Of a DNA stretch of 64,000 nt, positions 23,855 through 40,539 are shown piece after piece (within the stretch, counting starts at the first letter, position 1; each line of letters opens with the position of its first letter). Origin of the DNA: Antiquaquibacter oligotrophicus (GTDB lineage Bacteria > Actinomycetota > Actinomycetes > Actinomycetales > Microbacteriaceae); assembly GCF_020535405.1 (NCBI RefSeq), contig NZ_CP085036.1, positions 2,046,001 to 2,110,000 of the forward strand, read 5' to 3'. The position numbers and the translations under genes were made by a program. A model generated the notes under the pieces. That model had not been told where the DNA came from. It worked only from the letters and a program-made list of their open reading frames with translations, and did no database searches.

Positions 23855-23927
23855 GCCGCCCTAGCTCAGTCGGCAGAGCATCTCACTCGTAATGAGAAGG
23901 TCGAGGGTTCGATTCCCTCGGGCGGCT
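23855..23927 (+). tRNA. tRNA-Thr (anticodon CGT), prophage integration site
   Basis: Acceptor GCCGCCC pairs with GGGCGGC, discriminator T; anticodon arm TCTCA-CTCGTAA-TGAGA; T arm GAGGG-TTCGATT-CCCTC. From the middle of the anticodon onward the sequence equals 40500-40539 with two differences, so the 3' half is now supplied by the phage attachment site. The tRNA remains structurally intact. Confidence 0.96.
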
Positions 23928-24152
23928 CTCTAGCCACTCACGCGGTACGCCGGTCAGATCCGCGAACGCTCGCAGATCCCGCGGCCGCGGCACGTTCCTG
24001 CCGTTGATCCACGCGCTCACCGTGTTGCGATGCACCTCGAGGCGGGCCGCTACTTCACTGACGTCGAGATCCGCGACGCGCATTGCCTTTCGCATGTAGT
24101 CGGCTAGGTCGAACTCAAGCTCGACGGGCCGAACCGGGTCTGTGATGGTCAT
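23883..24152 (-). CDS. XRE-type phage repressor whose C-terminus is encoded by the tRNA/att core
   Basis: 89 residues as integrated. Residues about 20-75 form a helix-turn-helix domain (VSEVAARLEVHRNTVSAWINGRNVPRP). The last 12 residues, ending RESNPRPSHYE, are read from the antisense strand of tRNA-Thr. In the excised circle the same frame would cross the core and continue 21 residues beginning KSDPW and ending VLARVAIAR before a stop. It is divergent from the next gene across duplicated palindromic operators, as expected for an immunity repressor. Whether the C-terminal exchange changes stability or activity is inference. Confidence 0.82.
   Translation of the reverse strand: MTITDPVRPVELEFDLADYMRKAMRVADLDVSEVAARLEVHRNTVSAWINGRNVPRPRDLRAFADLTGVPREWLESRPRESNPRPSHYE
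23889..23928 (+). repeat. attL core (40 bp) inside tRNA-Thr
   Basis: Identical to 40500-40539 except at two positions (G versus A, and C versus T), which are the two partners of one T-stem base pair. Starts at the second anticodon base and ends one base after the discriminator. Confidence 0.93.
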
Positions 24153-24166
24153 GAAGTCAGACTAGG

Positions 24167-24188
24167 GCACGAAATCGTGCATTGCACG
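24167..24188. promoter_or_regulatory. Prophage operator copy 1
   Basis: 22-bp unit starting with the near-palindrome GCACGAAATCGTGC and followed by ATTGCACG. It repeats at 24207-24228 with two differences. It lies just upstream of the repressor start. Confidence 0.75.
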
Positions 24189-24189
24189 A

Positions 24190-24205
24190 CACGCCGCGCG
24201 GCGTG
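24190..24205. promoter_or_regulatory. Perfect 16-bp palindrome between the two operators
   Basis: CACGCCGCGCGGCGTG is its own reverse complement and sits exactly between the duplicated operator units. It may be a third protein site or a cruciform-prone centre. Confidence 0.6.
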
Positions 24206-24206
24206 C

Positions 24207-24228
24207 GCACGAATTCGTGCAATGCACG
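24207..24228. promoter_or_regulatory. Prophage operator copy 2
   Basis: Starts with the perfect palindrome GCACGAATTCGTGC, then AATGCACG. Start-to-start distance to copy 1 is 40 bp, close to four helical turns. It lies immediately before the divergent HTH gene. Confidence 0.75.
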
Positions 24229-24242
24229 GTTTAGTGATCCGC

Positions 24243-24425
24243 ATGCTCGCAGACCTAGTCACAACCCCGGAGCTCGCACGCGAGCTCGGCGTCGATCGCA
24301 GCACGATCACGCGCAAATGTCAGAAGGGCGAACTCGCCTTCGTCGACCGCATGCCTGGCTACAACGGGAACTATCTGTTCGATCCCGACTACGTCAAGCA
24401 GCTGCTCGAGGAGCGTGCAGCGTGA
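24243..24425 (+). CDS. Small phage DNA-binding protein (Cro- or excise-like HTH)
   Basis: 60 residues from the ATG at 24243; an ATG at 24222 inside operator 2 would add seven residues. TTPELARELGVDRSTITRKCQKGELAFVDRMPG is a MerR/excisionase-type helix-turn-helix with wing, then NYLFDPDYVKQLLEE. Divergent from the repressor, so Cro or Xis is the natural guess. Its TGA overlaps the next GTG (GTGA). Confidence 0.75.
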   Translation: MLADLVTTPELARELGVDRSTITRKCQKGELAFVDRMPGYNGNYLFDPDYVKQLLEERAA

Positions 24426-24517
24426 GCCGCGGCGCCTTCCTCCTCGCGTTCGTCGCGGTCGGGGTCTGCCTGTGGTCGCTCGTGCTGCAGCTGACGATCG
24501 GGGCGCTCAATGGCTGA
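24422..24517 (+). CDS. 31-residue single-pass membrane peptide
   Basis: GTG start overlapping the HTH stop and a stop overlapping the next ATG. Sequence after a short SRG leader is one hydrophobic helix (AFLLAFVAVGVCLWSLVLQL). Placement inside a chain of overlapping genes argues that it is expressed. Function unknown. Confidence 0.55.
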   Translation: MSRGAFLLAFVAVGVCLWSLVLQLTIGALNG

Positions 24518-25199
24518 CGCCAGGATCAAGCGGGTCAAACTCTCGTTCGAGCGGAACTACACGCAGATGCCCAACGAGTGGCACCGCGACCCTCAGCTGA
24601 GCCTCCGCGCTCGCGGGCTTCTCGGCCTCCTCATGAGCCACGACGAGAACTACATCGTGAGCGTGAAGTCGCTCGTCGCTCAGAACCCCGAAGGGCGCGA
24701 AGCGATCGAGGGCGCGATGCGCGAGCTCAAGGCCAAGGGCTATCTCCGACTGCACACTAAGCGCGGGGTACATGGCCGCGTCGACGGGTGGATTTGGGAG
24801 CTTACAGACCCCGTAGAGGCCGCTAGGCAGGACGCTGCAAACCGACTGCAGGGATTCCCGGACTACGGCTCAGCCGAGTTACGGAAAAGCCGTGGCACGG
24901 CAGAACCGCACTTAAAAGAACAACATCAGAAAGAACTAACTCAAGTTAAAGACGGCGACCCCCGTACACGCGCGGGGGAGGGAATGGACGCCTCCGGCGG
25001 CTCCCCCCGAGCCGCGACTGAGACGCGTGAGGAGAAGTACGCGCGGCTGCAGCACCAGCCCTGCCCGTGGCGCAAGGGCGCCGAGCACGACTTCGCACCC
25101 GGCAAGCCGTGTTCCGGATGCGGCATCCATGCCGGCCAATACCTCGACGAGAACCGAGAGGTTCGCTACCTCAGCGACCTGCTGGAGGGCGAGCGATGA
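24510..25199 (+). CDS. Phage replication-type winged-helix protein with C-terminal Cys/His cluster
   Basis: 229 residues. The N-terminal domain (YTQMPNEWHRDPQLSLRARG ... KSLVAQNPEGREAIEGAMRELKAKGYL) is the winged helix found at the start of many phage and plasmid replication initiators. A polar linker (about 120-180) leads to a C-terminal PCPWRKGAEHDF...CSGCGIHAG region that could bind zinc. With no polymerase or helicase in the prophage, it is the best candidate for origin recognition. Confidence 0.7.
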   Translation: MADARIKRVKLSFERNYTQMPNEWHRDPQLSLRARGLLGLLMSHDENYIVSVKSLVAQNPEGREAIEGAMRELKAKGYLRLHTKRGVHGRVDGWIWELTDPVEAARQDAANRLQGFPDYGSAELRKSRGTAEPHLKEQHQKELTQVKDGDPRTRAGEGMDASGGSPRAATETREEKYARLQHQPCPWRKGAEHDFAPGKPCSGCGIHAGQYLDENREVRYLSDLLEGER

Positions 25200-25519
25200 A
25201 GCAGCCCGTACCCCTCGACACCAACTTCAGAGTGCCGGTGCGCGTGAGCATCCCGCAGCCGCTTTACAAGGCCGTGAACGCACGCTACGGCGACGCAACG
25301 CCCGAGTTCCTCGCACGTGTCATCGAGCGAGCCCTCGTCGTGCAGCAGCCAACTGAGAAGCCAGCAAGGAAGCGGCGCGTGCGAGTGACGCCCGAGCTTG
25401 TGGCCCTCGTGCTCGAGATGCACGGCAACAGAGCGCGCACGATCGAGATCGCGAGAACGGTGGATCTCAGCAAGGCATCCATTCTGCGCATCCTCCGCGA
25501 CCACGGGAGGCAAGCGTGA
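25196..25519 (+). CDS. Small protein with C-terminal resolvase-like helix-turn-helix
   Basis: 107 residues; start overlaps the upstream stop (ATGA). N-terminal part resembles ribbon-helix-helix/CopG-like segments (VRVSIPQPLYKAVNARYG); C-terminal part EMHGNRARTIEIARTVDLSKASILRILRDHG is a helix-turn-helix like that of resolvase/Hin C-termini. Probably a phage DNA-binding regulator. Confidence 0.6.
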   Translation: MKQPVPLDTNFRVPVRVSIPQPLYKAVNARYGDATPEFLARVIERALVVQQPTEKPARKRRVRVTPELVALVLEMHGNRARTIEIARTVDLSKASILRILRDHGRQA

Positions 25520-25779
25520 ACCGAACGAAGTTGGCCAGCCGCCTCCACTTCATGGCCTCGCAGCTCAAGGGCGAGGCGCAACGACAGAGCAGCCCTGAGA
25601 TGCGTGACGAGTTACGCCGATCCGCGGCACAGTGCGCCGCGGCATTCCGCAAGGCCTACTCCCCAGACCCCGAGGAGCTGGCCGTTGCGGTCGCAATCCT
25701 CGACGGCGCGATCGACTACCTAGTCGGCGTGATCATCACAAGAACCGAGCACGAGCTCGCGGAAGGAAATCAACCATGA
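25516..25779 (+). CDS. Conserved phage early protein of unknown function
   Basis: 87 residues with a GTG start overlapping the preceding stop (GTGA). Predicted all-helical: charged N-terminal helix, then ELAVAVAILDGAIDYLVGVI. No family recognised. Its TGA overlaps the next ATG. Confidence 0.55.
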   Translation: MNRTKLASRLHFMASQLKGEAQRQSSPEMRDELRRSAAQCAAAFRKAYSPDPEELAVAVAILDGAIDYLVGVIITRTEHELAEGNQP

Positions 25780-26105
25780 ATGCAGCAGCAGCGAAGAGCG
25801 ACAAGACCCTCGCCGAGCAGAAGGCCAAGGTCGCCGAGCAGCACCCCGACGTGCAGCTCGCGATCGACGACGAAGCACCCGAGCAGCAGCCCGACGTGCC
25901 CTCGATCGAGCGTGACGGTGTGCCGGCCGATGGGACGTGCGGCGCCACGCGCTACCAGCAGGGTGCGCTCCGGACGTGTGAGCTGCCGATCCACCACCCC
26001 GGCAACCACCAGCAGGGTGACCGAGGCTGGCGCCGCTCGCACGGCGATGGCGCAGCGATCGCCGAGCGCCCCGAGGACGACGCCGAGAGCGAGCCCACGT
26101 CGTGA
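25776..26105 (+). CDS. Small phage protein with Cys/His putative metal site
   Basis: 109 residues, acidic and low complexity at both ends. The centre has GTCGATRYQQGALRTCELP followed by HHPGNHQQG, a Cys-x(14)-Cys-x(5)-His-x-x-x-His pattern also seen in small actinophage proteins. Function unknown; the spacing suggests a zinc knuckle. Confidence 0.5.
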   Translation: MNAAAAKSDKTLAEQKAKVAEQHPDVQLAIDDEAPEQQPDVPSIERDGVPADGTCGATRYQQGALRTCELPIHHPGNHQQGDRGWRRSHGDGAAIAERPEDDAESEPTS

Positions 26106-26419
26106 CGATCAGCAACACGGAGATCTGGCGCGAGGTTGAGAAGGCACGGCTGCGGGCGCATGACAAGCACGGCGCCAACAGCATCGAGGCAATCGACCCG
26201 CACAGCGAGCGCTGGGCGACGATCCTCGGCGAGGAAGGTGGTGAGGTGGCCGAGGTGCTCGTCCACATGTTCGCCGGTTCCATCCTCGCGATGGCCATCG
26301 GTCGTGTGTCACACTCGCTGACCTACGACGCTGACATCACCAACCTGCGCAGTGAGCTTATCGACGTGCTCTCGGTTGCGTCGGCGTGGGTTGACGCCCT
26401 CGACCGAGGCCGTGGTTAG
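26102..26419 (+). CDS. MazG-like nucleotide pyrophosphohydrolase domain protein
   Basis: 105 residues, GTG start overlapping the upstream stop. RWATILGEEGGEVAEVLVHM carries the EExxE metal motif of all-alpha NTP pyrophosphatases and LRSELIDVLSVASAWVDAL supplies the second (ExxD). Phage versions are thought to adjust nucleotide pools or alarmone levels. Common in small actinophages. Confidence 0.72.
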   Translation: MTISNTEIWREVEKARLRAHDKHGANSIEAIDPHSERWATILGEEGGEVAEVLVHMFAGSILAMAIGRVSHSLTYDADITNLRSELIDVLSVASAWVDALDRGRG

Positions 26420-26717
26420 TCACGGCCCTGGCGTCTACGCCGACCCTGCCGCCCCGCTCGAGAAGTGGGGCGGCAGGAAGGCGCAGCTCTACGTCATCGC
26501 CACGCTCGAGACGTACGGCACGGTGTGCTGGCTGTGTGGTCTGCCCGGATCGAACAGCGCTGACCACGTCATCCCGATCAGTCTGGGCGGCGCAGTCTAC
26601 GATCTCGAGAACCTCGGGCCATCGCATCGTAAGTGCAACTACGCTCGCGGCAACAGGCCCGCAGTCGCGGCGGGGTTCGCTGTCGAGAATGGCACGGCGT
26701 TCTTTAGTCGCGGGTAG
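26412..26717 (+). CDS. HNH endonuclease
   Basis: 101 residues from a GTG at 26412. CWLCG (Cys pair), SADHVIPISLGG with catalytic His, and LENLGPSHRKCNYARGN form a complete HNH motif with zinc cysteines. Located just upstream of terminase, where HNH proteins act together with terminase in DNA packaging in many siphophages. Confidence 0.88.
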   Translation: MVSHGPGVYADPAAPLEKWGGRKAQLYVIATLETYGTVCWLCGLPGSNSADHVIPISLGGAVYDLENLGPSHRKCNYARGNRPAVAAGFAVENGTAFFSRG

Positions 26718-26796
26718 CGGGACACCCACGCGCAGCCCCTTCCATTTTCTCCCTAAGCCCCACAAAAAATGCAGATCAGAACGGAAACAACGAACG

Positions 26797-27126
26797 ATGA
26801 ACGAGAGCACTCCGGAACAGCCCATGCTCGACGGACTCGACATCGCGCCTGAGCAGGGGCAGGGCTCGAAGCTTCGCGTCGCCGTCATTGCAACGCTAGA
26901 AGCACTGAAATCCGAGGGACTGCTCGAGCCAAGGCACGCGGCCGTGTCGCAGCTCACGCTCGAGCTCGCGGATGCCGTCGCCGTCGGCGTGCGGACACGC
27001 AAGGCGAGCGCTGCAGCGATGGCGGCCGCGCAGCTGCTCCAAGCGCTCGACGCGCTGCCCAAACCGATGGCGGCGGACACGGCGCAGAAGTTCGACGAGC
27101 TGCTCGAGAATCTGCGGAACTCGTAG
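26797..27126 (+). CDS. Putative terminase small subunit
   Basis: 109 residues. Helical, with KLRVAVIATLEALKSEGLLEPRHAAVSQL and a C-terminal helix ending KFDELLENLRNS. Identity comes mainly from position: it directly precedes the terminase large subunit and overlaps its GTG start by one base (TAGTG). A 79-bp gap upstream could hold the late promoter. Confidence 0.62.
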   Translation: MNESTPEQPMLDGLDIAPEQGQGSKLRVAVIATLEALKSEGLLEPRHAAVSQLTLELADAVAVGVRTRKASAAAMAAAQLLQALDALPKPMAADTAQKFDELLENLRNS

Positions 27127-28565
27127 TGCCGGCCACCGCGAAGTACGCGACGCCGCGAGATCCATCGCGGTCGACAGACGGAGGCAAGATCGCAGTGCTC
27201 TCCGACGCGCTCGGTAAGCCGCTGATGCCCTGGCAACGCCAGGTCGTCGACGTCGCCACCGAACGACACGCGAACGGTGACTACGTCTACGAGATCGTGA
27301 TCGTCACGGTGCCGCGCCAGTCCGGCAAGACAACCCTCCTCGGCCCGCTGATGCTGCACCGCTGCCTAGTCAACTCCGGCCGCCGCGTGTTCTACACCGC
27401 GCAGACGCAGAAGGACGCGAACAGCCGAATGGAGGACGTCATGAAGCTGATCAAGGGATCGGCTCTCGACGAGCCGATCACCAAGCCTGTGCGATCGCCC
27501 GGCAAGTTCGGCCTCAAGCTGCCGAACGACGCCGCGCTGCAGACGTTCGCGCCCGTGGCATCCGCGCTCCACGGCGAGACGCCGCCGCTCGTAGTTCTCG
27601 ACGAGTTCTGGGAGTACGACGAGCTGCTCGGCGATGCACTCCTCGAGGGCGCGATCTTCCCCTCGCAGCTGCAGCTCGAGGGCAACCGGCAGGTATGGCT
27701 CGTCTCCACCGCCGGCACCGCTGCCAGCGTGTTCATGCGCAAGTGGGTAGAGCGCGGCCGCGAGTCAGTCACGAGCAAAGGCGCGAAGCATCCGCGAATG
27801 GCGTACTTCGAGTGGTCGCTCTGGGAAGGCGACGACCCCTACGACCCCGAAGCGCTCGAGCGCTTCCATCCAGCAACCGGCAACGTCATCAACGGCAAGC
27901 TATTCACCGCGCAGTCACTCCTCGCGCTCCCCGACATGACGCCGTCGAAGTGGCTTCGCGGAATCTGCAACGTCTGGACCGAGGCCTCGGATGTGCTGAT
28001 CTCGGCCGAGGACTACGCAGATCTCGTGCGCGAACCCGCCGGTGTCCCCCTCCGCTCGGAGCTCACGATCACCTACGAGATCGCGCTCGAGAACGCGGCC
28101 GGCGTCGTCATGGCCAGCTGGCGCGACGACAACGGCGCACCGTGCAACCGAGTGCTGCACGCCGCACCCGGCACGAGCTGGATGCTGTCGTTCATCGTGG
28201 ACATATACCGCGAGTGGGCGCCCGCGATCCTCGGCGCCGACGACGGTGGCCCCACGCGCCGACTCACTGACGAGCTCCGCCGGATACTCGGCGAGGAAAC
28301 TGTGACCACGCTCGGCGGCCGCGACTTCGGCACCGCCTGTGAGTCGTGGCTCACCCTCGCGCGCGACAAGGATCTCGTGCTCGACGACACAGAGACGATG
28401 CGACGAGGCACCGCAAACCTTGTGCTGACGCGCATCAGCGACGTTGTCCGCTTCAGTCGCAAGGAATCCAGCGGCCCTATCCACGGGCCCATCGCCGGTG
28501 CGGTCGGCATCTTCCTGCACGATCACCGCGAGGAACCGCTCGAAATGCCGTTCGTCGACTTCTGA
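27126..28565 (+). CDS. Terminase large subunit
   Basis: 479 residues. ATPase: Walker A VPRQSGKTT at 62-70, Walker B VVLDEFWEY with Asp159-Glu160. Nuclease half around GADDGGPTRRLTDELRRIL and GGRDFGTACESWL. Length and order fit siphophage terminases that cut and translocate DNA into the prohead. Confidence 0.9.
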   Translation: MPATAKYATPRDPSRSTDGGKIAVLSDALGKPLMPWQRQVVDVATERHANGDYVYEIVIVTVPRQSGKTTLLGPLMLHRCLVNSGRRVFYTAQTQKDANSRMEDVMKLIKGSALDEPITKPVRSPGKFGLKLPNDAALQTFAPVASALHGETPPLVVLDEFWEYDELLGDALLEGAIFPSQLQLEGNRQVWLVSTAGTAASVFMRKWVERGRESVTSKGAKHPRMAYFEWSLWEGDDPYDPEALERFHPATGNVINGKLFTAQSLLALPDMTPSKWLRGICNVWTEASDVLISAEDYADLVREPAGVPLRSELTITYEIALENAAGVVMASWRDDNGAPCNRVLHAAPGTSWMLSFIVDIYREWAPAILGADDGGPTRRLTDELRRILGEETVTTLGGRDFGTACESWLTLARDKDLVLDDTETMRRGTANLVLTRISDVVRFSRKESSGPIHGPIAGAVGIFLHDHREEPLEMPFVDF

Positions 28566-28623
28566 TCGTTGCTATCTCCGCGACACGCGGTGTCTATTCG
28601 CGAAAGCCCGACGCGGCCGCAGG

Positions 28624-29730
28624 ATGCCCTCCGTGGGATTCATGCAGCAGGTAGCCAGCTACTTCGGCTTCGCATCGCGCTTCAGCGATAGCAGCCACCT
28701 CGCGCAGATCACCCTCGACGACTGGCTCGGCTCACTCCCCGACGCCGTCGCAGTGAACCGCAGCAACGCGATGTCGATCGCCACGATCTCGGCGGGCCGC
28801 AACACGATCGCAGGTGTTGCCGGCGGACTCACACTGCTCGCCGAGAAGGGGTCGCAGCCGGCGCCCGTGCAACCCTCGATCCTCGAGGGATTCGAGCGCG
28901 GCATCCCGATGGCAACCACGCTGACGTGGACGTTCGACGATCTGATCTTCTACCCGTGCTCGTGGTGGGTCGTTCGCGAGCGTGACTTCTACAACTGGCC
29001 GATCTGGGGCGAGCGCGTCGACCACTCCCGCACCCGGCTAGACAGCTTCGGCCGGCTTACGCACGTCGACGGCGAGGAAGTCAAACCGCAGGACGTCATT
29101 CGGTTCGACTCACCGCTCGGCGACGGTCTCCTCGTCAACGGGCGCCGGACTATCAAGCGCGCGATCGCGCTCGATATCTCGGCCGCCCTCGCCGAGGACA
29201 ACCCCGTTCCCAGCGTCGAGCTCCACAACGAGGGCAACACACCAATGGACGAGAGGCAGCGCAAGCAGCTGATCTCCGATTGGATCGAAGCCCGCAGGAA
29301 GTCCGGCGTCGGCTACACGCCTAAGGGTCTCAAGGTCGTCACCCACGGCCTCGCCCCTCAGCAACTGCTCATCGACGGGCGCCGTGCGATCAGCCTCGAC
29401 GCTGCACGGCACATGAACCTGCCCGCCTGGGCGGTATCGACGGCAGTCGAGGGCGCCACGATGACCTACGACAACCGCTCCATGCGCAACTGGGAGCTGA
29501 TCGACCTCACCCTCGGTGCGTACTTCACGGCCGTAGCCGGCCGCCTCTCGATGCCCGACGTCACACCCCGCGGGTGGAAGGTGCGCATCAACCCCGACGA
29601 GCTCACGCGCCCCGACGAAAAGACCCGATTCGACACCTACAAGGTCGGCCTCGACGGCGACTTCATCGACCGCGAATGGATCGCAGCCCGCGAGGGCTGG
29701 CCCCGCATCATGGGAGGAACCCAGCAGTGA
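28624..29730 (+). CDS. Phage portal protein
   Basis: 368 residues from the ATG at 28624; ATG 28642 is an alternative. Features: AMSIATISAGRNTIAG near residue 60, FYPCSWWVVRERD, a long helix around MDERQRKQLISDWIEARRK, and PAWAVSTAVEGATMTYDN. These fit HK97-type portal proteins, and the gene sits between terminase and the protease-capsid gene. On the short side for a portal. Confidence 0.82.
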   Translation: MPSVGFMQQVASYFGFASRFSDSSHLAQITLDDWLGSLPDAVAVNRSNAMSIATISAGRNTIAGVAGGLTLLAEKGSQPAPVQPSILEGFERGIPMATTLTWTFDDLIFYPCSWWVVRERDFYNWPIWGERVDHSRTRLDSFGRLTHVDGEEVKPQDVIRFDSPLGDGLLVNGRRTIKRAIALDISAALAEDNPVPSVELHNEGNTPMDERQRKQLISDWIEARRKSGVGYTPKGLKVVTHGLAPQQLLIDGRRAISLDAARHMNLPAWAVSTAVEGATMTYDNRSMRNWELIDLTLGAYFTAVAGRLSMPDVTPRGWKVRINPDELTRPDEKTRFDTYKVGLDGDFIDREWIAAREGWPRIMGGTQQ

Positions 29731-31418
29731 ACCGCAGCAAACTCGACGCCCTGCTCGCAGCGGGCATCATCACTCTCGAGCAGCACCAGGCCGCGATCGC
29801 CTCGATCGTCGACGGGATCGTTACAGAGCTGCCGCAGCTGCAGCTCACAGCCCCCGGCACCGTGCGCCTCGAGGAGGCGCCGGCCGAGCCGGACGCCGAA
29901 CCCGAAAGCTGGGACGGCGTGCTCACCGGCACCATCACGCAGTACGGCGTGCTGATCCCGTCGCACGGGATGATCCTCGAGCCCGGATGCCTGCAACCGC
30001 GACAGCCCCTCACCGCCGTCAAGATGATGCGGGACCACAACCACAGCGAGCCAGTCGGCTACATGCTCGACGTCGACGCATCCGTTACCGAGGCCTCATT
30101 TCAGATCGCGCCGACCGAGCGCGATCGCGTCCTGCAGGAAGTCAACGACAAGCTCCGTGACGGGCTCTCGGTCGGCTTCACCGCGCTCGAGTACGACATC
30201 GACGATGACTGGATCTTCCACGTCATCGCAGCTGACCTCTACGAGGTTTCGCTCTGTGCCGTCCCCGCCGTCGTCGGCGCCGGGGTCACATCCGTTGCCG
30301 CCGCACTGGCAACCCTACGAAAGGAAAACCGCACCATGAACCGAGCCCAGCTCGCGGCGGCCCTCGCGGCCGGCACGATCACCCAGGAGGCCTACGACAG
30401 CGCGATCGCCACGCTCGACGCCCTCGCCGTCACGCCTCCCGTCAACGTCCCCGCCGAGCTCGCCGCCGGCCCCGAGCTGCAGGTCGAGCAGCCGGCCCCA
30501 CCGGTCCAGGTTCAGGGGCGTGCACTCTCGCTCGCGCAGGTCAACGAGCGGCTTACGCAGGCCGCGAACTCCGGCAATTTCGGAACCTTCCAGCTCGCGA
30601 TCGCCGACGTGCTCGCCTCCGACGACGTCGGCGCCGCTTTCCTCCGCGACGACTGGCAGGGCGAGGCCTGGCGGGAGAACGAAGTCGCGCGCCCGTGGAT
30701 CGACGCCTTCGGTGCTCCCGCCGAGCTCACCTCGCTCAACGGCGAGGGCTGGGAGTGGGGCGACGAGCCCGAGGTCGACGAATACGCCGGCGACAAGACG
30801 GAGGTTCCGTCCAACGAGATCAGCACGCTGGCCAAGGCCTACCAGGGCTTTCGCATCGCCTCCGGTCACGACGTCGACCGCGTCTTCACGGACTTCGCCA
30901 ATGCCGAGTTCTGGCCGGCGTTCTGGTCTGCGCGACTGCGCGACTACAAGCGCAAGTCGAACGCCGGCATCCGTACCCGCGTCCTCGCCAAGGCGACCGC
31001 GAAGACGGGCACTGTCACCACGGGCGGCGTGAAGGCCGTGCTCAAGCAAGCGATCAAGGACGTGCGCCCGTTCGGCAAGGCGAACCGGGTGTTCCTCGGC
31101 GTCGACCTCATGGCCGAGCTCGAGGATCTCCCGACCGACACGCTGCCGCTCTGGCTCAAGTCGGCCGAGATCGGCGTCGACATCGCCGAAGGTTCGGCCG
31201 ACACGAAGACGCTCCGCATCCTCGAGGACGCCACCCTCGCCGCGAAGCAGATCGTCGCGTTCGACAACCGCGCCGGCAAGGTGCGCGAGAAGGCGCCGTT
31301 CCAGGTCGAGGCAATCCAGGTCGCACACGGCGGTATCGACACCGGCCTCTACTCGTACCTCCGGTTCGACGACTACGACCCCCGCGCGATCATCAAGCGC
31401 ACCTACGTACCCGCGTAG
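29727..31418 (+). CDS. In-frame fusion of prohead protease and HK97-type major capsid protein
   Basis: 563 residues from a GTG overlapping the portal stop. Residues about 60-185 are the prohead protease (DHNHSEPVGY with His104; DGLSVGFTALEYD with Ser148; ADLYEVSLCAVPAV). Residues about 204-563 are delta region plus major capsid protein (NFGTFQLAIADVLASDDVG, TLAKAYQGFRIASG, KANRVFLGVDLMAELEDL, VAHGGIDTGLYSYLRFD). No stop separates them. An in-frame ATG at 30336 with AAAGGA ten bases upstream probably yields capsid protein separately. The two N-termini are alike (MNR-x(4)-ALLAAG-type). Confidence 0.85.
   Translation: MNRSKLDALLAAGIITLEQHQAAIASIVDGIVTELPQLQLTAPGTVRLEEAPAEPDAEPESWDGVLTGTITQYGVLIPSHGMILEPGCLQPRQPLTAVKMMRDHNHSEPVGYMLDVDASVTEASFQIAPTERDRVLQEVNDKLRDGLSVGFTALEYDIDDDWIFHVIAADLYEVSLCAVPAVVGAGVTSVAAALATLRKENRTMNRAQLAAALAAGTITQEAYDSAIATLDALAVTPPVNVPAELAAGPELQVEQPAPPVQVQGRALSLAQVNERLTQAANSGNFGTFQLAIADVLASDDVGAAFLRDDWQGEAWRENEVARPWIDAFGAPAELTSLNGEGWEWGDEPEVDEYAGDKTEVPSNEISTLAKAYQGFRIASGHDVDRVFTDFANAEFWPAFWSARLRDYKRKSNAGIRTRVLAKATAKTGTVTTGGVKAVLKQAIKDVRPFGKANRVFLGVDLMAELEDLPTDTLPLWLKSAEIGVDIAEGSADTKTLRILEDATLAAKQIVAFDNRAGKVREKAPFQVEAIQVAHGGIDTGLYSYLRFDDYDPRAIIKRTYVPA
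30336..31418 (+). CDS. Nested in-frame major capsid protein (internal start)
   Basis: Predicted product of internal initiation: 360 residues beginning MNRAQLAAALAAGTITQEAY. The upstream GAAAGGAAAACC is the best ribosome site in the cluster. Capsid subunits are needed in large excess over protease, which internal initiation would provide. The first roughly 70 residues would be the delta/scaffold domain removed by the protease. Confidence 0.65.
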   Translation: MNRAQLAAALAAGTITQEAYDSAIATLDALAVTPPVNVPAELAAGPELQVEQPAPPVQVQGRALSLAQVNERLTQAANSGNFGTFQLAIADVLASDDVGAAFLRDDWQGEAWRENEVARPWIDAFGAPAELTSLNGEGWEWGDEPEVDEYAGDKTEVPSNEISTLAKAYQGFRIASGHDVDRVFTDFANAEFWPAFWSARLRDYKRKSNAGIRTRVLAKATAKTGTVTTGGVKAVLKQAIKDVRPFGKANRVFLGVDLMAELEDLPTDTLPLWLKSAEIGVDIAEGSADTKTLRILEDATLAAKQIVAFDNRAGKVREKAPFQVEAIQVAHGGIDTGLYSYLRFDDYDPRAIIKRTYVPA

Positions 31419-31427
31419 ACCCGACCA

Positions 31428-31462
31428 GCCCGCCCCGCGACCTGGTCAAGCGCGGGGCGGGC
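31428..31462 (+). terminator. Strong hairpin after the capsid gene
   Basis: 12-bp perfect stem GCCCGCCCCGCG/CGCGGGGCGGGC with an 11-base loop, ten bases after the capsid stop and followed by ACCCCTTTACG. The weak T tract suggests partial termination or mRNA 3' protection between capsid and downstream connector genes. Confidence 0.7.
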
Positions 31463-31484
31463 ACCCCTTTACGAGAGGCTCACA

Positions 31485-32188: not shown

Positions 32189-32198
32189 GAGAAACACC

Positions 32199-32615: not shown

Positions 32616-33106
32616 TGCTCGACGTCCGCCGATCTCCCGAGCTGCAGGCAGCGCTGCTGGGCATGCGCCAAGCGCGCCGGGAGATCGCGCGCGACATCAA
32701 CAAAGAGGCTCGGCGCACGACCAAAGGGCAATGGCTCGAGGCTCTCCGCGCTCGAGCTGTGACCCGCGCCGATGACCGAATCATCGTTCGCGGCGCACGC
32801 ACAGCCATCACAAATAACCGAGTGTCCGTCAAAGCGGCCACCTCCACCAGGCCGCTGAGCGGCGGCCTCGTCCCCTCCTACCAATGGCAAGGAACAGAGT
32901 TCGGAATGACTGAAAAGGTCGTCGTCGTCAAGACGCGTCGCGGCAGCGGCCCCCGAGTCGTAGGCCGGCAGTTCCGGAGCCGCAGCAAGCACGGCCGAGT
33001 GGCATTCGACGCGGCCAGCAAGGTCGGCACCCAGCTGGTCGCTGGATGGGTCAAGTCGATCATCGACGGGTTCCGAGGGTTCGCAGAGATCAAGGGCGGT
33101 CGCTGA
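32615..33106 (+). CDS. HK97 gp10-like / minor tail-joining protein
   Basis: 163 residues, very basic. QARREIARDINKEARRTTKGQWLEALRARA at the N-terminus and SKVGTQLVAGWVKSIIDGF at the C-terminus resemble HK97 gp10-type tail completion proteins, which normally precede the tail tube; here it follows it. No tail assembly chaperone pair or slippery site was found between this gene and the tape measure. Confidence 0.55.
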   Translation: MLDVRRSPELQAALLGMRQARREIARDINKEARRTTKGQWLEALRARAVTRADDRIIVRGARTAITNNRVSVKAATSTRPLSGGLVPSYQWQGTEFGMTEKVVVVKTRRGSGPRVVGRQFRSRSKHGRVAFDAASKVGTQLVAGWVKSIIDGFRGFAEIKGGR

Positions 33107-34554: not shown

Positions 34555-34913
34555 TGCCAACAATCACCGCGGTCAGCGGCACCACCACTCCGACACTCAT
34601 CCTCGCGAGCTCGATCGTCGGCAGTCAGGAAGCGCGCACTATCGAGCACGAACTGCTCGACGGACCCTCTGCCTACACTCTCCTGCCGGCAGGCCCACGA
34701 AAGTTCGCGCTCGAGCTGCTCTACCCCTCCGAGGCTGACGCGGAAGCGGCGCGCACGATGCACACCCTCCCGCAGTCGTTCACGATCTCCTACCCAGAAC
34801 GACTGATGCTCCACGGCCTGCAGTACGTGCGATTCGGAGAGATGAAGATCGCTCTTGACCCCGACACGCGACGCCGATTTGTTCTCACCCTGAACATCAG
34901 CGAGGTGAGCTGA
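34554..34913 (+). CDS. Distal tail-like protein
   Basis: 119 residues, beta-rich: TPTLILASSIVGSQEARTIEH, FALELLYPSEADAEAARTMH, SFTISYPERLMLHGLQYVRFG, RRRFVLTLNISEVS. Position after the tape measure and before the large minor tail protein fits a small Dit-type hub protein. Overlapping start and stop with neighbours. Confidence 0.6.
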   Translation: MPTITAVSGTTTPTLILASSIVGSQEARTIEHELLDGPSAYTLLPAGPRKFALELLYPSEADAEAARTMHTLPQSFTISYPERLMLHGLQYVRFGEMKIALDPDTRRRFVLTLNISEVS

Positions 34914-36652
34914 TGGGCGCCGTGCTCGAGGAAGCTACCGCTGTCGTAACGACTGACGCCGGCGCAGCGCTGCACACGCTCAAGCTGCGCTCATGGAACG
35001 TCACCCTCGACGAGTCACGAACGCCCTACGTGAACGCAACGATCGAGGCTGTACTGCCGGCATCGCTCGACACGGACGACATCACCCCGTACGCCGATCA
35101 GCGCGTGCGGCTCACCATCACACGCACACCCATCGACGGGGCGCCCGCCTCACGTTCGTTCAACCTTCTCGTTCACGAAGTCATGTCGAACCGTGCAGCC
35201 GCGACCCTCACAATCATTGCCGTCTCCGATGAAGCGAAGTGGCTCGACGTCGCCCGCCAGGACGACGCCTATGACCTTCGAATCGCGGGCGGCGCCCTCA
35301 ACGGCCTCGACGCGAAGACGCTAATCGAGACCTACCTTGCCGACCCTCCCTCCGGAACGCCGCTAGGCCTCGCGCCAGGTTTCACACACGACACCGCAGA
35401 TCTCTACAACGAGCTGCCGCCGACGTTCTTCCAGTGGCGCAACACGATGCTCAACTCGTCCTTCGAGACAAACACCACGGGCTGCATCGCTTCGAACGCA
35501 TCGTTCGTCCGCGACAACTCGTGGGCACGTTCCGGAACGTGGTCACTGCGAGTGGCAGCTGCAAGTGCCTCCTCCTACGTCGAGCTGGGCGGGGGTAGCG
35601 GGGGCATGCGATCAGGCTTCACGGCGGGTTCGACCTTCCTCGTGCGCGCATCGGTGCGCGTCCGTACCTCCCTCGGCACCCCGAACTCGACCGCGCGATG
35701 CATACAAGTCATCGCCAGAGACGCAGCCGGCAACTATTCGGCGATCGCCACGAGCGACCAAGCGACCAACGTCGTAGGGGCAGTGACCGACCTCGAACTC
35801 GAGGTGAAGATCCCGCCGGGTGTAACCGAAGCATGGGTACGACTTGTGCACGGCCACTCGTCCGGAGATCTCCAATGGGATGCACTGCTCGTCACCAACA
35901 TCGACAGCAACATCTCGACCACCGAGACGGGCCTCCCCGACTACATCTGGTACTTCGACGGCGCAAACGTCATCCGGAAATACCGTCTCAGTGCTGCCTG
36001 GCCTCCGTACCTCAACGTCGAGACGACTACGCACCCAAACCAAGAGCCGGAGTGGAGCGGACCGACCCCATACGCCTCGATCAGTCTGCTCGTGCCCGAG
36101 CCCTACGTGCAGGCCGCACAATCGGTGGCCGGTGAGCTCTACTGGGAACCGATCGCCCGCATCATGGAGGCCGCCCGGCTCCGGCTGTTCTGCGACGAGC
36201 AGCGCCGCTGGAGGTTGCGCGCGATCGGCGCGATCTCGCCTACCTCGCACGAGCTCACGGCCCAACACGACATCACCAATCTCACGGTGACCGCTTCACG
36301 GCAGCGATCGGTCGAGGAACGCCCCCTGTTCGCGGATCACATCGTCTTGACCGTCACGGACGCCATCGGCACCCTGACGGTTCAACAGTCCATCGGCACG
36401 CCCACGTGCACCTGGTTCGTAGAGCGCACGGTCGACTACTGGGCACCCACGGAGGCCTTCGAGGCCCTCGCACTCGGGATGCTCGAGAACGTCTACTACC
36501 GCCGGCACCTCGTGGAAACGACATGCCTAACCGATCTCGCCGTGAATCCCGGCGACCAGGTGCTCGTCGACGGCATCGACCAGGTCGCTGCCGTTGTGAC
36601 GTTCCAATCCGGCGGAACCATGACCCTGACAAGCCGAGCAGTGGAGGCCTAA
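34913..36652 (+). CDS. Minor tail protein / tail hub with inserted carbohydrate-binding-like module
   Basis: 579 residues. Residues 1-150 (LKLRSWNVTLDESRTPYVNA, VRLTITRTPIDGAPASRSFN) and 390-579 (LFCDEQRRWRLRAIGAI, LAVNPGDQVLVDGIDQVAAVV) look like a split tail-hub (Tal/gp44-like) protein. Between them, about 180-340, an inserted beta-sandwich starts TMLNSSFETNTTGCIAS and includes SWARSGTWSLRVAA, the pattern of CBM4/9-type carbohydrate-binding modules. It probably contacts cell-wall glycans. Confidence 0.72.
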   Translation: MGAVLEEATAVVTTDAGAALHTLKLRSWNVTLDESRTPYVNATIEAVLPASLDTDDITPYADQRVRLTITRTPIDGAPASRSFNLLVHEVMSNRAAATLTIIAVSDEAKWLDVARQDDAYDLRIAGGALNGLDAKTLIETYLADPPSGTPLGLAPGFTHDTADLYNELPPTFFQWRNTMLNSSFETNTTGCIASNASFVRDNSWARSGTWSLRVAAASASSYVELGGGSGGMRSGFTAGSTFLVRASVRVRTSLGTPNSTARCIQVIARDAAGNYSAIATSDQATNVVGAVTDLELEVKIPPGVTEAWVRLVHGHSSGDLQWDALLVTNIDSNISTTETGLPDYIWYFDGANVIRKYRLSAAWPPYLNVETTTHPNQEPEWSGPTPYASISLLVPEPYVQAAQSVAGELYWEPIARIMEAARLRLFCDEQRRWRLRAIGAISPTSHELTAQHDITNLTVTASRQRSVEERPLFADHIVLTVTDAIGTLTVQQSIGTPTCTWFVERTVDYWAPTEAFEALALGMLENVYYRRHLVETTCLTDLAVNPGDQVLVDGIDQVAAVVTFQSGGTMTLTSRAVEA

Positions 36653-37008
36653 TGAGCTCACGACCCTGGTACATCCGAGAAGGCGACGACAACACCCTCT
36701 ATGACGGGCGCCTTCGTTTCATGCTGCGAGAGGGGGACGACGGTCCCCTCGAGCCCGAGAACCTCAGCGAGTGGGAGGACTGGAAATCCCAATGGCGGCC
36801 ATATCCCACAGCTGAAACCTTCGTCGAGCTCGAAGTCGACGAGACCGGCGCCGAAGATGGCTACCTCACGCTGCACGCCACCGCCGCCGACACAATCGCG
36901 ATGGGCGGCCGAGACGGCGTCTTCGACATCCAAGCCACGAAAGACGGCAAAATCCGCACCTTCTACAGCGAGCAGACCGTCCTCGAGCGGGAGGTGACCC
37001 GTGGCTGA
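36652..37008 (+). CDS. Baseplate/fibre-associated protein
   Basis: 118 residues, acidic. YDGRLRFMLREGDDGPLEPENLSEWEDW and DGYLTLHATAADTIAMGGRDGVFDIQ resemble the N-terminal domain of phage baseplate upper proteins (BppU-like). Its end overlaps the fibre gene start by eight bases. Confidence 0.55.
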   Translation: MSSRPWYIREGDDNTLYDGRLRFMLREGDDGPLEPENLSEWEDWKSQWRPYPTAETFVELEVDETGAEDGYLTLHATAADTIAMGGRDGVFDIQATKDGKIRTFYSEQTVLEREVTRG

Positions 37009-37672
37009 CCCCGTCATCATCGTTGAGACGGTGCGCGATCGCGTCGTCGTCATCGAGCGCGCTATCGGCCGACAGGGCGAGCATGGCCTGCCCGGTGACC
37101 TCGGCCCGCAAGGCCCCGAAGGGCCGGCCGGCCCTCGAGGGAACAAAGGTGACAAGGGCGACCCCGGCGCGCCGCTCCTGGCGATCGCCAACGTGCCGGC
37201 GTCGTTCACCAGCAGCAACGCCGAGCAGACCCTCGCCGAGTTCGACCTCGGAACAGACGCTGAGCTCGGCGACGTCCTCCGCATCGTGACCGGTTGCCGA
37301 GTTCAAAACAGCTCCGGCAGCGCTGCCTCATGGACGTTCCGCTGGTACATCAACGACGTGCTCGTGATGACACACGGCCCGATCTCCTATGCCGCCGGGG
37401 CTGTGTACGCGCTTCAGCTCGAGCTGATCGCGAGCCTCGTCGCTGACGACTACATCGCGAGCTCGTGCACCGTCGACGGCACAGCCTCGGCCACGTCCGG
37501 CACGACAGCAGCCCTCAACACCACGAACTCGCGCGTCGGGTTCGGGATCGCGACAGCCCTCGCGGCGATCTCCGCCGGCGTGCGTGTCAAGGTCACGTGT
37601 CAACGCAACTCGGCATCGTCAGCGGCCTACACGCACCATCACGTTACGTTCGTCGAGGGAATGCGCGCATGA
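37001..37672 (+). CDS. Tail fibre-like protein with a collagen-like stretch
   Basis: 223 residues, GTG start. Residues about 26-58 are Gly-X-Y repeats (GEHGLPGDLGPQGPEGPAGP and onward to GDPGAP), predicted to form a short triple helix. The C-terminal 160 residues are beta-rich with an AAYTHHHVTFVEGMRA end. Likely trimeric receptor-binding fibre. Confidence 0.78.
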   Translation: MADPVIIVETVRDRVVVIERAIGRQGEHGLPGDLGPQGPEGPAGPRGNKGDKGDPGAPLLAIANVPASFTSSNAEQTLAEFDLGTDAELGDVLRIVTGCRVQNSSGSAASWTFRWYINDVLVMTHGPISYAAGAVYALQLELIASLVADDYIASSCTVDGTASATSGTTAALNTTNSRVGFGIATALAAISAGVRVKVTCQRNSASSAAYTHHHVTFVEGMRA

Positions 37673-38436
37673 GCTACTGGGGATACCCGAACGGCGAGAT
37701 CCCCGCCGAAGCGATGTACGCCTTTGAGAGCCGCGGTGGATGGTTCTACCTCCGCGAGGACGCTGCCTACTGGTGGTGGCGGCTCCGCGCCGACTACGCG
37801 GCCACATGGGGCGTTCTGCTCGACGTCACAGACGCCTACAGGAACCTCGCCGAGCAGTGGTACTACTGGAACGCCTATCAGGCCGGATGGGGTAACGTCG
37901 CGGCCTACCCCGGCCGCTCCAACCACGGGTGGGCAATCGCCGTCGACATCTACACGCCGTCCTACGGCGGATCTGCCGGCACTCCCCAACATGACTGGCT
38001 CGTCGAGCACGCACCCAAATACGGGTGGACATGGCACACCGGCAAAGCCTCCGGTGAGTCGTGGCACTGGGAGTTCACTCAGACGCCCACGATGCCGGCG
38101 GATCTCGGCACCACCCCCGAACAAGCCCCACCACCCCCACCACCAACAGAGGAGCCAGACATGGCATTGCAAGACGGCGGCTACATCGTCGAACAGGACA
38201 AGAACGGCAAGTTCGTTCGGGGCGCGATCTTCGGCCCCGGCGTGCCCGGCGGCGTCATCGTCGCCTCGATCAGCGAGGGAGTCGAGCGACTGCAGGCGAT
38301 GGGCAACCTCGCCGGCGTACGCGCCTTCAACCTCGACGACGGCAAGGGACGCCGCGTGGGAGCTCCGCTCAAGTACGTAGCCGCGGCCGAGTTCGACGCC
38401 ACGGTGAAGCTCGCTGGGGAGATCTTCACCGAGTGA
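37669..38436 (+). CDS. Endolysin, M15-type D-Ala peptidase with C-terminal binding region
   Basis: 255 residues. Zinc peptidase motif SNHGWAIAVD gives His86 and Asp93; ESWHWEF gives His133. That triad is the M15 (VanY/L-Ala-D-Glu or D-Ala peptidase) site. A Pro-rich linker (EQAPPPPPPTEEPD, 151-164) joins a C-terminal module of about 90 residues (DGGYIVEQDKNGKFVRGAIF) that probably binds the wall. Placed before two holin-type genes in a lysis cassette. Confidence 0.88.
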   Translation: MSYWGYPNGEIPAEAMYAFESRGGWFYLREDAAYWWWRLRADYAATWGVLLDVTDAYRNLAEQWYYWNAYQAGWGNVAAYPGRSNHGWAIAVDIYTPSYGGSAGTPQHDWLVEHAPKYGWTWHTGKASGESWHWEFTQTPTMPADLGTTPEQAPPPPPPTEEPDMALQDGGYIVEQDKNGKFVRGAIFGPGVPGGVIVASISEGVERLQAMGNLAGVRAFNLDDGKGRRVGAPLKYVAAAEFDATVKLAGEIFTE

Positions 38437-38777
38437 ACTGGGAAAACATCATCGTTCAGGCTGTAGCGTCCGCCGGGGTTATCTCGGCGGCGCTCCTGCC
38501 TGTCCTGGTGAGCACGCGCAGGAAGGCCTCCTCGGCCGCGAAGGACGCGTCCGCGGCTCGGTCGCAAGTTCAGAACTCGCACACCAAAAACTTCCGTGAC
38601 GACCACGACGACAAGCACACGGCCGTCATGAGCGCGATCGCGCGCGTCGAGTCAGATATCCGAGGAGTCCGTCGCGACGTCGGCCGCCTCGCTGACGCTG
38701 ATGTGCGCCACGAGCAGCGCATCCATGACCTCGAGCAAACCCAACCCCGCAACCCCACTGATCGGAGCGCACAATGA
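38433..38777 (+). CDS. DUF2746-type holin-like membrane protein
   Basis: 114 residues, GTG start overlapping the endolysin stop. One transmembrane segment (IIVQAVASAGVISAALLPVLV, 6-26) then a charged coiled-coil tail (KDASAARSQVQN ... DVGRLADADVRHEQRIHDLEQ). This is the layout of DUF2746 proteins found beside actinophage endolysins. Confidence 0.72.
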   Translation: MNWENIIVQAVASAGVISAALLPVLVSTRRKASSAAKDASAARSQVQNSHTKNFRDDHDDKHTAVMSAIARVESDIRGVRRDVGRLADADVRHEQRIHDLEQTQPRNPTDRSAQ

Positions 38778-38986
38778 GCCATGCAGCTCGACCCACCACC
38801 ACCCCGAACCGTCTGATCCCCTCCCCGAAGGTGCGCTCATGGCTTTACGGCATCGCGGCCGCGGCAGCACCAATACTCGTGATCCGAGGCCTCGTGAGCG
38901 CTGACGAAGCCGGTCTGTGGATCGCACTCGCTGGCGCCGCCCTCGGTATCACAGGGACGCTGGGCGCCGCGAACGTCCCTCGTTAG
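38774..38986 (+). CDS. Phage holin
   Basis: 70 residues with two hydrophobic helices (WLYGIAAAAAPILVIRGLV and LWIALAGAALGITGTLGAANV) and a short C-terminus. Size, topology and location after the endolysin fit a small holin. Its TAG overlaps the stop codon of the convergent lipoprotein gene. Confidence 0.75.
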   Translation: MSHAARPTTTPNRLIPSPKVRSWLYGIAAAAAPILVIRGLVSADEAGLWIALAGAALGITGTLGAANVPR

Positions 38987-39177
38987 TCGGGTTCGCCGCA
39001 GAGCTCGTGGACCTCGTCGATGTACGCCTGTACGTCGTCGGGGTCCATTTGCACGCCGGCCACACAATCCGCGTAGCTCGAGAGAGACGGCGTCGGGGTC
39101 GGCGTCGACGCCGGTGGGGTCGCTCCGCACCCGACGAGGAGGAGCACCAGGGCCACGGGGAGGAGTCTGGCTGTCAT
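38983..39177 (-). CDS. Small prophage lipoprotein
   Basis: 64 residues from the ATG at 39177. Signal peptide MTARLLPVALVLLLVGC ends in the lipobox LVGC; a Pro/Thr/Ser linker and a short acidic domain with two cysteines (YADCVAG, HELCGEP) follow. Expressed on the lysogeny strand with HTH and integrase genes, so it may be a lysogenic conversion or superinfection exclusion factor; that is inference. Confidence 0.65.
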   Translation of the reverse strand: MTARLLPVALVLLLVGCGATPPASTPTPTPSLSSYADCVAGVQMDPDDVQAYIDEVHELCGEPD

Positions 39178-39196
39178 GGCGCCAGGGTAGCGCCAC

Positions 39197-39457
39197 CTAG
39201 GCCGAGCGACGACTCCCGAAACGCTGCTGAGCGGCCTGACGGCTGATGCCGAGACTGTCGCCGATTGACGTCCACGACTTGCCCCGGCTCCGGTGCAAGT
39301 CCACCGCGTGCGCGATCGCCTCGTCGATCGTGTCGTGCATGGCGACGAGCTCGGCGAGCTCGAACTCGTCGCCATCATTGCCGACTCGGATTCCGCCGGC
39401 ACGGATGATGCGGCCCACGAAGCCTAGGAACTGCAGGGAATCGACCTCACGGGCCAC
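39197..39457 (-). CDS. Small HTH protein (sigma-region-4-like)
   Basis: 86 residues, GTG start. The C-terminal KSWTSIGDSLGISRQAAQQRFG is a helix-turn-helix of the sigma region 4 kind; the N-terminus is helical and acidic. Related small proteins occur in actinobacterial prophages and chromosomes. Lies between integrase and lipoprotein genes on the same strand. Confidence 0.65.
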   Translation of the reverse strand: MAREVDSLQFLGFVGRIIRAGGIRVGNDGDEFELAELVAMHDTIDEAIAHAVDLHRSRGKSWTSIGDSLGISRQAAQQRFGSRRSA

Positions 39458-39488
39458 GGTGAAACTCCTCGGGATTTTGGTGTCAACC

Positions 39489-40352
39489 TCACGTTGACAC
39501 TGTGATTCGTGACTTGTCGGGCAGCTGCAGCTGGGCGATTCCTGCCTGCAGCAGACCCCAGCTGACGCCCGTGTAAAGCTCCGTCGTGGCCACGCTCTTG
39601 TGACGGAGTAGCTCTTGGACGACGCGCATATGAACGCCGTTCTCGAGAAGGGTTGTCCCGTACCAGTGGCGCAGCTGATGCGGCGTGCCGACCACGCCAG
39701 CGCGGCGCATGGTGTCAGCTATGGCCCGGTAGACAGCGGCGCGGCTAACGTGCGGTCGATCGCTGCCCTGCAGCTCGTAGGACGCGAACCAGTAGCCGTC
39801 GACGGGGAAATGGACGGCAAGCTCGGTGATGGCCTCGTGAGCGGGGATCATCGCCGTCGCGCCGCCCTTGCCAGTCACGGTGATGATCCCGTTTCGGCGG
39901 TCGAGATCCTCGCCATGAAACTTCGCGATCTCATGCACCCGCAAGCCGGCCGCGGCCGCGAGGAGAATCATCATCCGAGTGCGTCGACGAGTTGCGCTCG
40001 CGAGGAGCAGCTCAAGGTTGCCGGTCGGGATCGGCCGGGGCTTGCCTCGAGTGCGTTTCGGGGTCGGCGTGAGGAGGCTGGGATCGTCGGCTCGCAACTG
40101 GACGCGCACGAGCCATTGGCAGTAGGCCCGGATCGTGGCGTGATAGGTCGCTTTGGTTGTCTGACCGCCATGTGCACCGACGAAGCGAATAATGTCGGCC
40201 GGGCTCAGCTCCAGCGGCGCGGCGCCGGCGTGCTCGAGTAGCCGGCGCACGATCGAGAGTCGTTCCGAGATCGTGCGCTCACTGAGCCCTTGTGCCTCCT
40301 GCCAGAGTCGCCAGTCCAACAAGATTCCATCGTGAGCATCAGTCATGCTCAC
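39489..40352 (-). CDS. int: Tyrosine integrase
   Basis: 287 residues from GTG 40352 (ATG 40346 is the alternative). Core-binding domain 1-95, catalytic domain 105-287 with Arg138 (GLRVHE), Lys162, His225-x-x-Arg228 (HQLRHWYG), His251 and nucleophile Tyr260 (TTELYTGV). XerC/D-like length. It starts about 150 bp inside attR and is transcribed away from it. Confidence 0.95.
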   Translation of the reverse strand: MSMTDAHDGILLDWRLWQEAQGLSERTISERLSIVRRLLEHAGAAPLELSPADIIRFVGAHGGQTTKATYHATIRAYCQWLVRVQLRADDPSLLTPTPKRTRGKPRPIPTGNLELLLASATRRRTRMMILLAAAAGLRVHEIAKFHGEDLDRRNGIITVTGKGGATAMIPAHEAITELAVHFPVDGYWFASYELQGSDRPHVSRAAVYRAIADTMRRAGVVGTPHQLRHWYGTTLLENGVHMRVVQELLRHKSVATTELYTGVSWGLLQAGIAQLQLPDKSRITVST

Positions 40353-40437
40353 CCACGTTACGATCGCGAACCCACCACGTGACGAGCCCTAATCCGAGTG
40401 ACACGACAACGCCAGCCACCATCGCAAGCTCCGTCAT
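40339..40437 (-). CDS. 32-residue membrane ORF between integrase and attR
   Basis: MTELAMVAGVVVSLGLGLVT then WWVRDRNVGEHD: one hydrophobic helix and a charged tail. Its stop overlaps the integrase start region. Its ATG overlaps (ATGA) the stop codon that the repressor frame would reach in the excised circle. Too short to recognise; the double overlap is the evidence that it is a gene. Confidence 0.5.
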   Translation of the reverse strand: MTELAMVAGVVVSLGLGLVTWWVRDRNVGEHD

Positions 40438-40499
40438 CGCGCGATCGCCACTCGTGCCAGCACGTACGCGATCGCGTAGACACCCCAAGGGTCAGACTT

Positions 40500-40539
40500 G
40501 TAATGAGAAGGTCAAGGGTTCGATTCCCTTGGGCGGCTC
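40500..40539 (+). repeat. attR core (40 bp)
   Basis: Copy of the tRNA-Thr 3' half with A...T in place of G...C at the outermost T-stem pair. Followed directly by the tRNA's likely original terminator, so its right side is host DNA. Confidence 0.93.

Follow-up and report, generated by a model that had tools for sequence, protein, structure and literature searches.

How a phage might tie its immunity to its own integration is the question raised by a prophage of Antiquaquibacter oligotrophicus (Microbacteriaceae), found in a stretch of 64,000 nucleotides (contig NZ_CP085036.1, positions 2,046,001 to 2,110,000; hereafter the window). The prophage, of about 16.6 kb, has a copy of the tRNA-Thr(CGT) 3′ end at each border (23889 and 40500) and encodes a terminase, portal, head/protease, peptidase, and holin according to PHROG and Pfam matches. 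Its repressor gene lies at one end and its integrase gene (int) at the other. An earlier note on this DNA proposed that the phage attachment site (attP) lies within the repressor gene, such that integration exchanges a long repressor for a short one. Integration-dependent immunity of this kind is given a probability of about 0.72 here. The estimate draws on what is read from the sequence, namely the geometry of the locus, the lengths of both repressor forms, the probable source of each core copy, the recurrence of the arrangement in the family, and the apparently non-random repressor tails.

In the integrated state, the XRE repressor gene (minus strand, 23883..24152; phrog_2328, HTH_31, and HTH_3) starts at 24152, enters tRNA-Thr in antisense, and stops at 23883. 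The resulting prophage form has 89 residues, ends in SHYE, and takes its stop from the host tRNA. The phrog_2328 match (E 2.3e-19) covers residues 6–88 and so includes the helix–turn–helix (HTH) domain and reaches into the core. When the two prophage ends are joined in silico as in the excised circle, the frame remains open for the 21-residue tail KSDPWGVYAIAYVLARVAIAR, ending VAIAR, and the repressor has 109 residues. The tail (minus strand, 40434..40499, 21 codons plus stop) is contiguous with the rest of the repressor gene only in the circular form. Thus, the attP core is inside the repressor frame, and the prophage form is shorter because the bacterial sequence at attL supplies a stop. The TGA of the tail lies within an ATGA that begins a 32-codon open reading frame (ORF; minus strand, 40339..40437), the end of which overlaps the GTG start of the integrase at 40352. 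In the phage form, the repressor therefore comes first and the tyrosine integrase (minus strand, 39489..40352, 287 residues ending RITVST; PF00589 and phrog_1) comes next, both in the same direction. The claims that the integrated repressor stops at SHYE, that the circle extends it by 21 residues, and that the three genes overlap in a chain are all reproduced by this join and its coordinates.

The length of the circle form depends on the position of strand exchange. Aligned from 23889 and 40500, the two core copies share 14 identical bases, a mismatch, 15 identical bases, a second mismatch, and 9 identical bases. The first 14 bases, GTAATGAGAAGGTC (plus strand, 23889..23902 in the left copy), form the inferred strand-exchange region, and all three exchange points tried within them give 109 residues. 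Exchange beyond the first mismatch gives a form of 83 residues instead because the right-hand core (attR; plus strand, 40500..40539) carries a TGA in the repressor frame. The 109-residue form is thus contingent on exchange within the first 14 bases.

Whether the phage frame is open also depends on which core copy is host DNA. At the core mismatch, all 11 other genomes compared have A, as does the right copy, while the left copy has G. The right core is 98% identical to three genomes of the genus, compared with 93% for the left copy, and the reconstructed empty site is 90% identical to genome G282 over 103 bases, through the tRNA and into the downstream flank. The right copy, a host-type tRNA 3′ end, is most likely host DNA, and the tRNA-Thr(CGT) at attL (plus strand, 23855..23928; ARAGORN) is most likely phage DNA from the exchange point to its 3′ end, as judged by comparison with these genomes. 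The phage frame would therefore be open. The opposite arrangement, an attP frame interrupted by the right-hand core so as to give the 83-residue form, is unlikely since the right copy looks host-type.

The mismatch lies in the T stem of the tRNA, where the pair was surveyed in 30 loci. The pattern was matched in 25, or 24 once the attL of the window itself is excluded, and these have A-T in 17, G-C in 6, and C-G in 1. The G-C pair was considered as a compensating change that opens the frame, but it also occurs in other hosts, and the idea is left as suggestive only. The phage may simply carry the tRNA end of another such host. In the lysogen, the phage-derived G-C pair replaces the likely A-T pair of the host, and the tRNA-Thr call is kept for both versions. 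The prophage flanks were also compared for arm-type integrase sites; they share no 9-mer or longer, and one 10-mer is repeated inside the left flank (23956 and 24067).

An open frame of this length is unremarkable by itself. The signal beyond chance is comparative: repressor genes that end in antisense tRNA, longer phage forms, and non-random tails. A profile built from seven repressors was searched against 398 Microbacteriaceae genomes (E up to 1e-7) and matched 58 places in 53 genomes, of which 32 places, mainly the top-scoring ones, were studied. The 3′ end of the repressor ORF overlaps an antisense tRNA (Thr, Lys, Asn, Ala, Arg, or Val) in 25 of the 32, with the stop inside the tRNA in 24; the ORF of G033 runs through. 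For 21 loci from 20 genomes, the window included, the search also located the other core copy, with a tyrosine integrase gene after it. These prophages use tRNA genes for five amino acids, and the joined phage-form repressor is longer than the prophage form in all 21 pairs.

A pair was accepted only if an integrase lay downstream. When more than one junction could be drawn, the choice fell on the exact run that yields the longest phage form. An alternative, later junction gives a form no longer than that of the prophage in seven cases (G000, G096, G240, G063b, G393, G056, and G063). For G343 and G276, the second-ranked match was used because the top one had no integrase in the former and was the locus itself in the latter, and the two ends of the G276 pair are on different contigs. 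The 11 loci without a pair are G251, G271, G370, G052, G179, G062, G293, G280, G033, G176, and G014. In G251, the phage form is on a short contig, and the G271 match has only 19 bases; the pair search did not cover G370, G293, and G176, and for G179 and G280 it covered the wrong side or the locus itself.

In 12 of the 21 pairs, the first difference between the copies falls on the third base of the host stop (TGA to TGG, TGT, or TGC; TAA to TAC). The window is outside these 12, its copies diverging three bases before the stop. The attP site can be read directly in three phage-form contigs, in which the repressor ends ...LREQIAGVQ (L010), ...LSERRAA (L018), and ...PLRLAS (L096); the L018 repressor has no tblastn match to that of the window. 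Two apparent counterexamples were set aside. The frame of L085 reads HY and a stop after the core, but another frame runs on to ...YADRAA, and the core stop of L089 is in an attR copy, the only one visible, where host DNA is located.

The tails were compared in a set of 30, comprising the 21 joined tails and 9 others; L004, L005, L006, and L011 were read at the int side only and have no repressor partner. L085 (...DRAA) and L094 (...ELAAA; partner repressor not found) were omitted, as were L014, which has no attachment site, and the duplicates L082, L084, and L086 (the G227, G133, and G096 prophages) and L013 (same upstream sequence as L004). In statistics that ignore kinship among the prophages, 14 of 30 tails have Ala as their last residue (5.9 expected when the residues of each tail are permuted; p 2e-4), and 20 end in either Ala or Ser (8.2 expected; p about 5e-5). 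The 21 joined tails alone have Ala last in 10, against 4.4 expected (p 0.004). An Arg end, as in the window, is also found in L005 (LAVAR) and L011 (SLAR), outside the Ala/Ser rule.

The tails are also hydrophobic. The mean best-13 hydropathy of the 21 tails is 1.49, compared with 0.39 in nucleotide shuffles (0 of 200 as high) and with −0.26 and −0.21 in the other two forward frames, where the value is biased downward because stop codons leave shorter stretches. The window tail reaches 1.96, a value attained by 0.5% of its shuffles. For 13 published-type phages, with Barebow omitted, the mean is 0.62 (p 0.001 against the family tails), as taken from the last 35 residues with a slightly different measure. 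The tail type is not uniform: lengths range from 11 to 60 residues, the ends of G240 and G127 are long and polar, and the tails of G202, G390, and G361 are not hydrophobic. Nonpolar C-terminal ends are known to destabilize a fragment of the lambda repressor. Overall, the tails look selected, judging from composition and end residues, and the different, hydrophobic tail proposed for this prophage is a recurrent type in Microbacteriaceae by comparison with shuffles and other frames.

The slot between tail and int is more variable. The stop of the tail overlaps or abuts a start in 14 of the 21 joined pairs. In the 12 pairs with an overlapping start, the ORFs (32 to 292 codons) are longer than those at 1251 control sites (median 34, p 3e-4); two of them (290 and 292 codons) are int itself. 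The content of the slot differs among relatives, and short hydrophobic ORFs are found in the window and G343. A PHROG search with the 32-residue ORF gave no match, and its candidacy as a conserved part of the switch was dropped. The extra small membrane ORF of the earlier note is thus present and overlaps both tail and int, but it is not conserved; relatives have different ORFs in its place, and deposited phages (GMA5, DirtyBoi, Petra, and Gusanita) have an extra ORF before int as well, that of GMA5 being noted in PMC5559632. By eye, G227, L011, G127, and probably G185 have a similar small ORF in the slot, which appears HTH-like, with ...SWxxIGxxLxIxRQxAQxRxG in the first three.

On the other side of the repressor, a divergent HTH gene (plus strand, 24243..24425, 60 residues) resembles excisionase/Cro-like proteins (phrog_66, E 2.1e-6; HTH_17 above cut-off). 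A 22-bp double palindrome occurs twice between the two genes, at 24167..24188 and, 40 bp from the first, at 24207..24228 (both unstranded). Each copy consists of two overlapping palindromes, with both patterns matched exactly, and these are the only exact matches in the window. When up to two mismatches are allowed, the counts of the patterns in the window are at chance level (33 and 49 of 100 shuffles reach them). The argument for operators is based on exact matches within an intergenic gap, and the sites are considered candidates.

In the proposed mechanism, the repressor gene of the circle or virion would read through attP into the hydrophobic tail and then into the small ORF and int by way of overlapping ends. 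The tail most likely shortens the lifetime of the repressor, while integrase from the same message would recombine attP with the 3′ end of tRNA-Thr. Upon integration, int would move to the far end of the prophage together with the small ORF and the tail, and the host tRNA would provide a stop. The resulting stable 89-residue repressor could then hold the two candidate operators before the divergent excisionase-like gene. Integration would also cut int off from the repressor promoter. The steps that we infer are that the long form is unstable, that the operators are bound, that immunity results, and that the genes share a message.

Several observations weigh against this mechanism. The window tail ends in Arg and not in -AA or -AS, the tmRNA tag of the host ends in ALAA, and an -AA end is found in 11 of the 13 published-type phages. 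The integrase has no -AA end either, while 6 of 12 comparison integrases do. The hydropathy of the last five residues of the tails is not raised (0.50, compared with 0.47 by permutation; p 0.44). Given the G-C pair in 6 of 24 other loci, the open frame is perhaps not a selected change. A consensus promoter scan of 24100–24300 found none, and a search of the viral contigs found no attP identical to the reconstructed one.

The tail might work otherwise than as a degradation signal. Membrane sequestration or a block to assembly, with proteolysis secondary, would fit the recurrence of hydrophobic tails and the lack in the window of the -AA end that is read by ClpXP-type degradation. However, the hydrophobic run of the window tail, VYAIAYVLARVAIA, is rather short to span a membrane and contains Arg, the enrichment of Ala and Ser at tail ends suits a C-terminal degradation signal, and the long form of the BPs repressor binds DNA as well as the short form (PMC4557955). 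This explanation is considered unlikely. If the switch acted on integrase only, with int coupled to the repressor message in the circle and uncoupled upon integration while both repressor forms behave alike, one would also expect what is seen in 14 of 21 pairs, a start overlapping the stop of the tail, and ORFs there that exceed control lengths. This reading leaves the composition and end residues of the tails unexplained, as well as the published degradation of the BPs long form (PMC4557955), and is improbable.

Coincidence is the least probable explanation, and very much so. On this account, the phage integrated in a tRNA gene beside its repressor, and the tail is meaningless read-through. 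The lengths of the tails show no demonstrated departure from random stop spacing, and no close relative of the window tail is available for a test of constraint. Against this, the arrangement recurs in 21 prophages that use five types of tRNA, the phage copy has lost the host stop, the tail composition is non-random, and there are published precedents (PMC4557955, PMC9934374, PMC6109161, and PMC8092301). Integration-dependent immunity remains the preferred reading. Within it, Microbacteriaceae phages may form a hydrophobic-tail branch whose tails are read by a route other than ssrA and ClpXP (e.g., a membrane protease such as FtsH, or membrane sequestration), a tentative proposal that is itself somewhat doubtful. 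If it is true, integration would release the repressor from a fate tied to the membrane.

Mycobacteriophages are already known to use this switch, and publications also describe members lacking -AA tags, members with small genomes, and an extra ORF ahead of int. New, as far as the literature search reaches, are the frequency of the design in Microbacteriaceae and the hydrophobic tails there; the search found no paper on integration-dependent immunity with Curtobacterium, nor one on a Microbacteriaceae prophage repressor with attP. The present analysis extends integration-dependent immunity to this family, with 20 further prophages in 19 of 398 genomes sharing the in silico geometry. They form a natural set of removable tails for asking which C-terminal signals shorten the lifetime of phage repressors. 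Odd repressor ends in these genomes, such as RPEGLEPPTF, are antisense tRNA, which is overlooked in annotation unless attachment sites are considered.

Some homologues depart from the common arrangement. At L003/G090, an integrase with 52% identity adjoins the 5′ part of tRNA-Thr in the same direction with no recognizable T-arm after it, unlike other loci, and attachment appears to be different or decayed. Arthrobacter phage BlueFeather (L080, 16.3 kb) encodes an HTH protein 55.6% identical to the window repressor, with a Pro/Arg-rich end and no tRNA-like core; the 4.8 kb read contains no annotated integrase, and this phage may be a relative that has lost the ability to integrate. Region 3242–5615 of L239 (G473:C1:586500-596500), from another family of the order, holds a repressor gene with the end ...RTPVAA, a tyrosine integrase gene, and after them four tandem repressor-like ORFs (4484–5615). 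These lack a tail and a tRNA-like end and may constitute a reserve of additional repressors. Another repressor, ending ...DSNQQPFD, is located 42 kb away (L240).

Known systems differ in target, tail, and kinship. In BPs, the long repressor is degraded via an ssrA-like tag and the short form is active (PMC4557955). The repressors of BPs and other cluster G phages are likewise shortened upon integration, but their repressor and integrase sequences differ from those of the window, and function was tested for BPs. The repressor of the BPs relative Liefie ends ...DKAS. The Gordonia phages GMA5, GRU3, Jeanie, and McGonagall also have small genomes with attP within the repressor (PMC5559632), yet their target is tRNA-Lys, and the GMA5 repressor ends GAAA. 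Bifidobacterium prophages Bb423phi2 and 689b-1, of about 18 kb, have a virion repressor with 18 extra C-terminal residues in silico; unlike the window, they use tRNA-Met, and an ssrA-like tag is reported (PMC6109161). Curtobacterium phage Barebow (18.3 kb) shares the order int, HTH protein, divergent HTH gene, and its HTH frame crosses a tRNA-like stretch and ends PLRRAS. However, its repressor and integrase are only 34% and 31% identical to those of the window, and the former is annotated only as an HTH DNA binding protein.

The feature list of PMC9934374 comprises a core within the repressor, a bacterial stop at or near the junction, and an -AA tag. The tag is taken here as typical and not as defining since PMC8092301 accepts members without it: the Mycobacterium abscessus prophages MabC, MabN, MabO, and MabH are described there as integration-dependent, with repressors lacking ssrA-like tags and other signals presumed. 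These prophages belong to another host family, and the repressor of prophiT36-2a (MabN in PMC9934374) is 46.8% identical to that of the window.

In phage records, the circle form of the repressor has 148 matches, with cluster P mycobacteriophages at the top (43–45%), and the integrase has 416, with 46% the best among the matches listed. Cluster P phages are described as having attP in the repressor, a tRNA-Thr target, and integration-dependent immunity (PMC9635641). The Fishburne repressor is 45.7% identical to that of the window (residues 1–89) and its integrase 43.7%, and the gene order int, repressor, divergent excisionase/regulator is the same. In contrast, cluster P genomes are of 47 kb, the Fishburne repressor and integrase end in -AA, and no extra ORF separates repressor from int in Fishburne. 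The proposal that the window prophage follows the logic of the mycobacteriophage switch is supported by this homology, the shared target tRNA, the divergent excisionase-like gene, the arrangement in relatives, and the direct attP reads.

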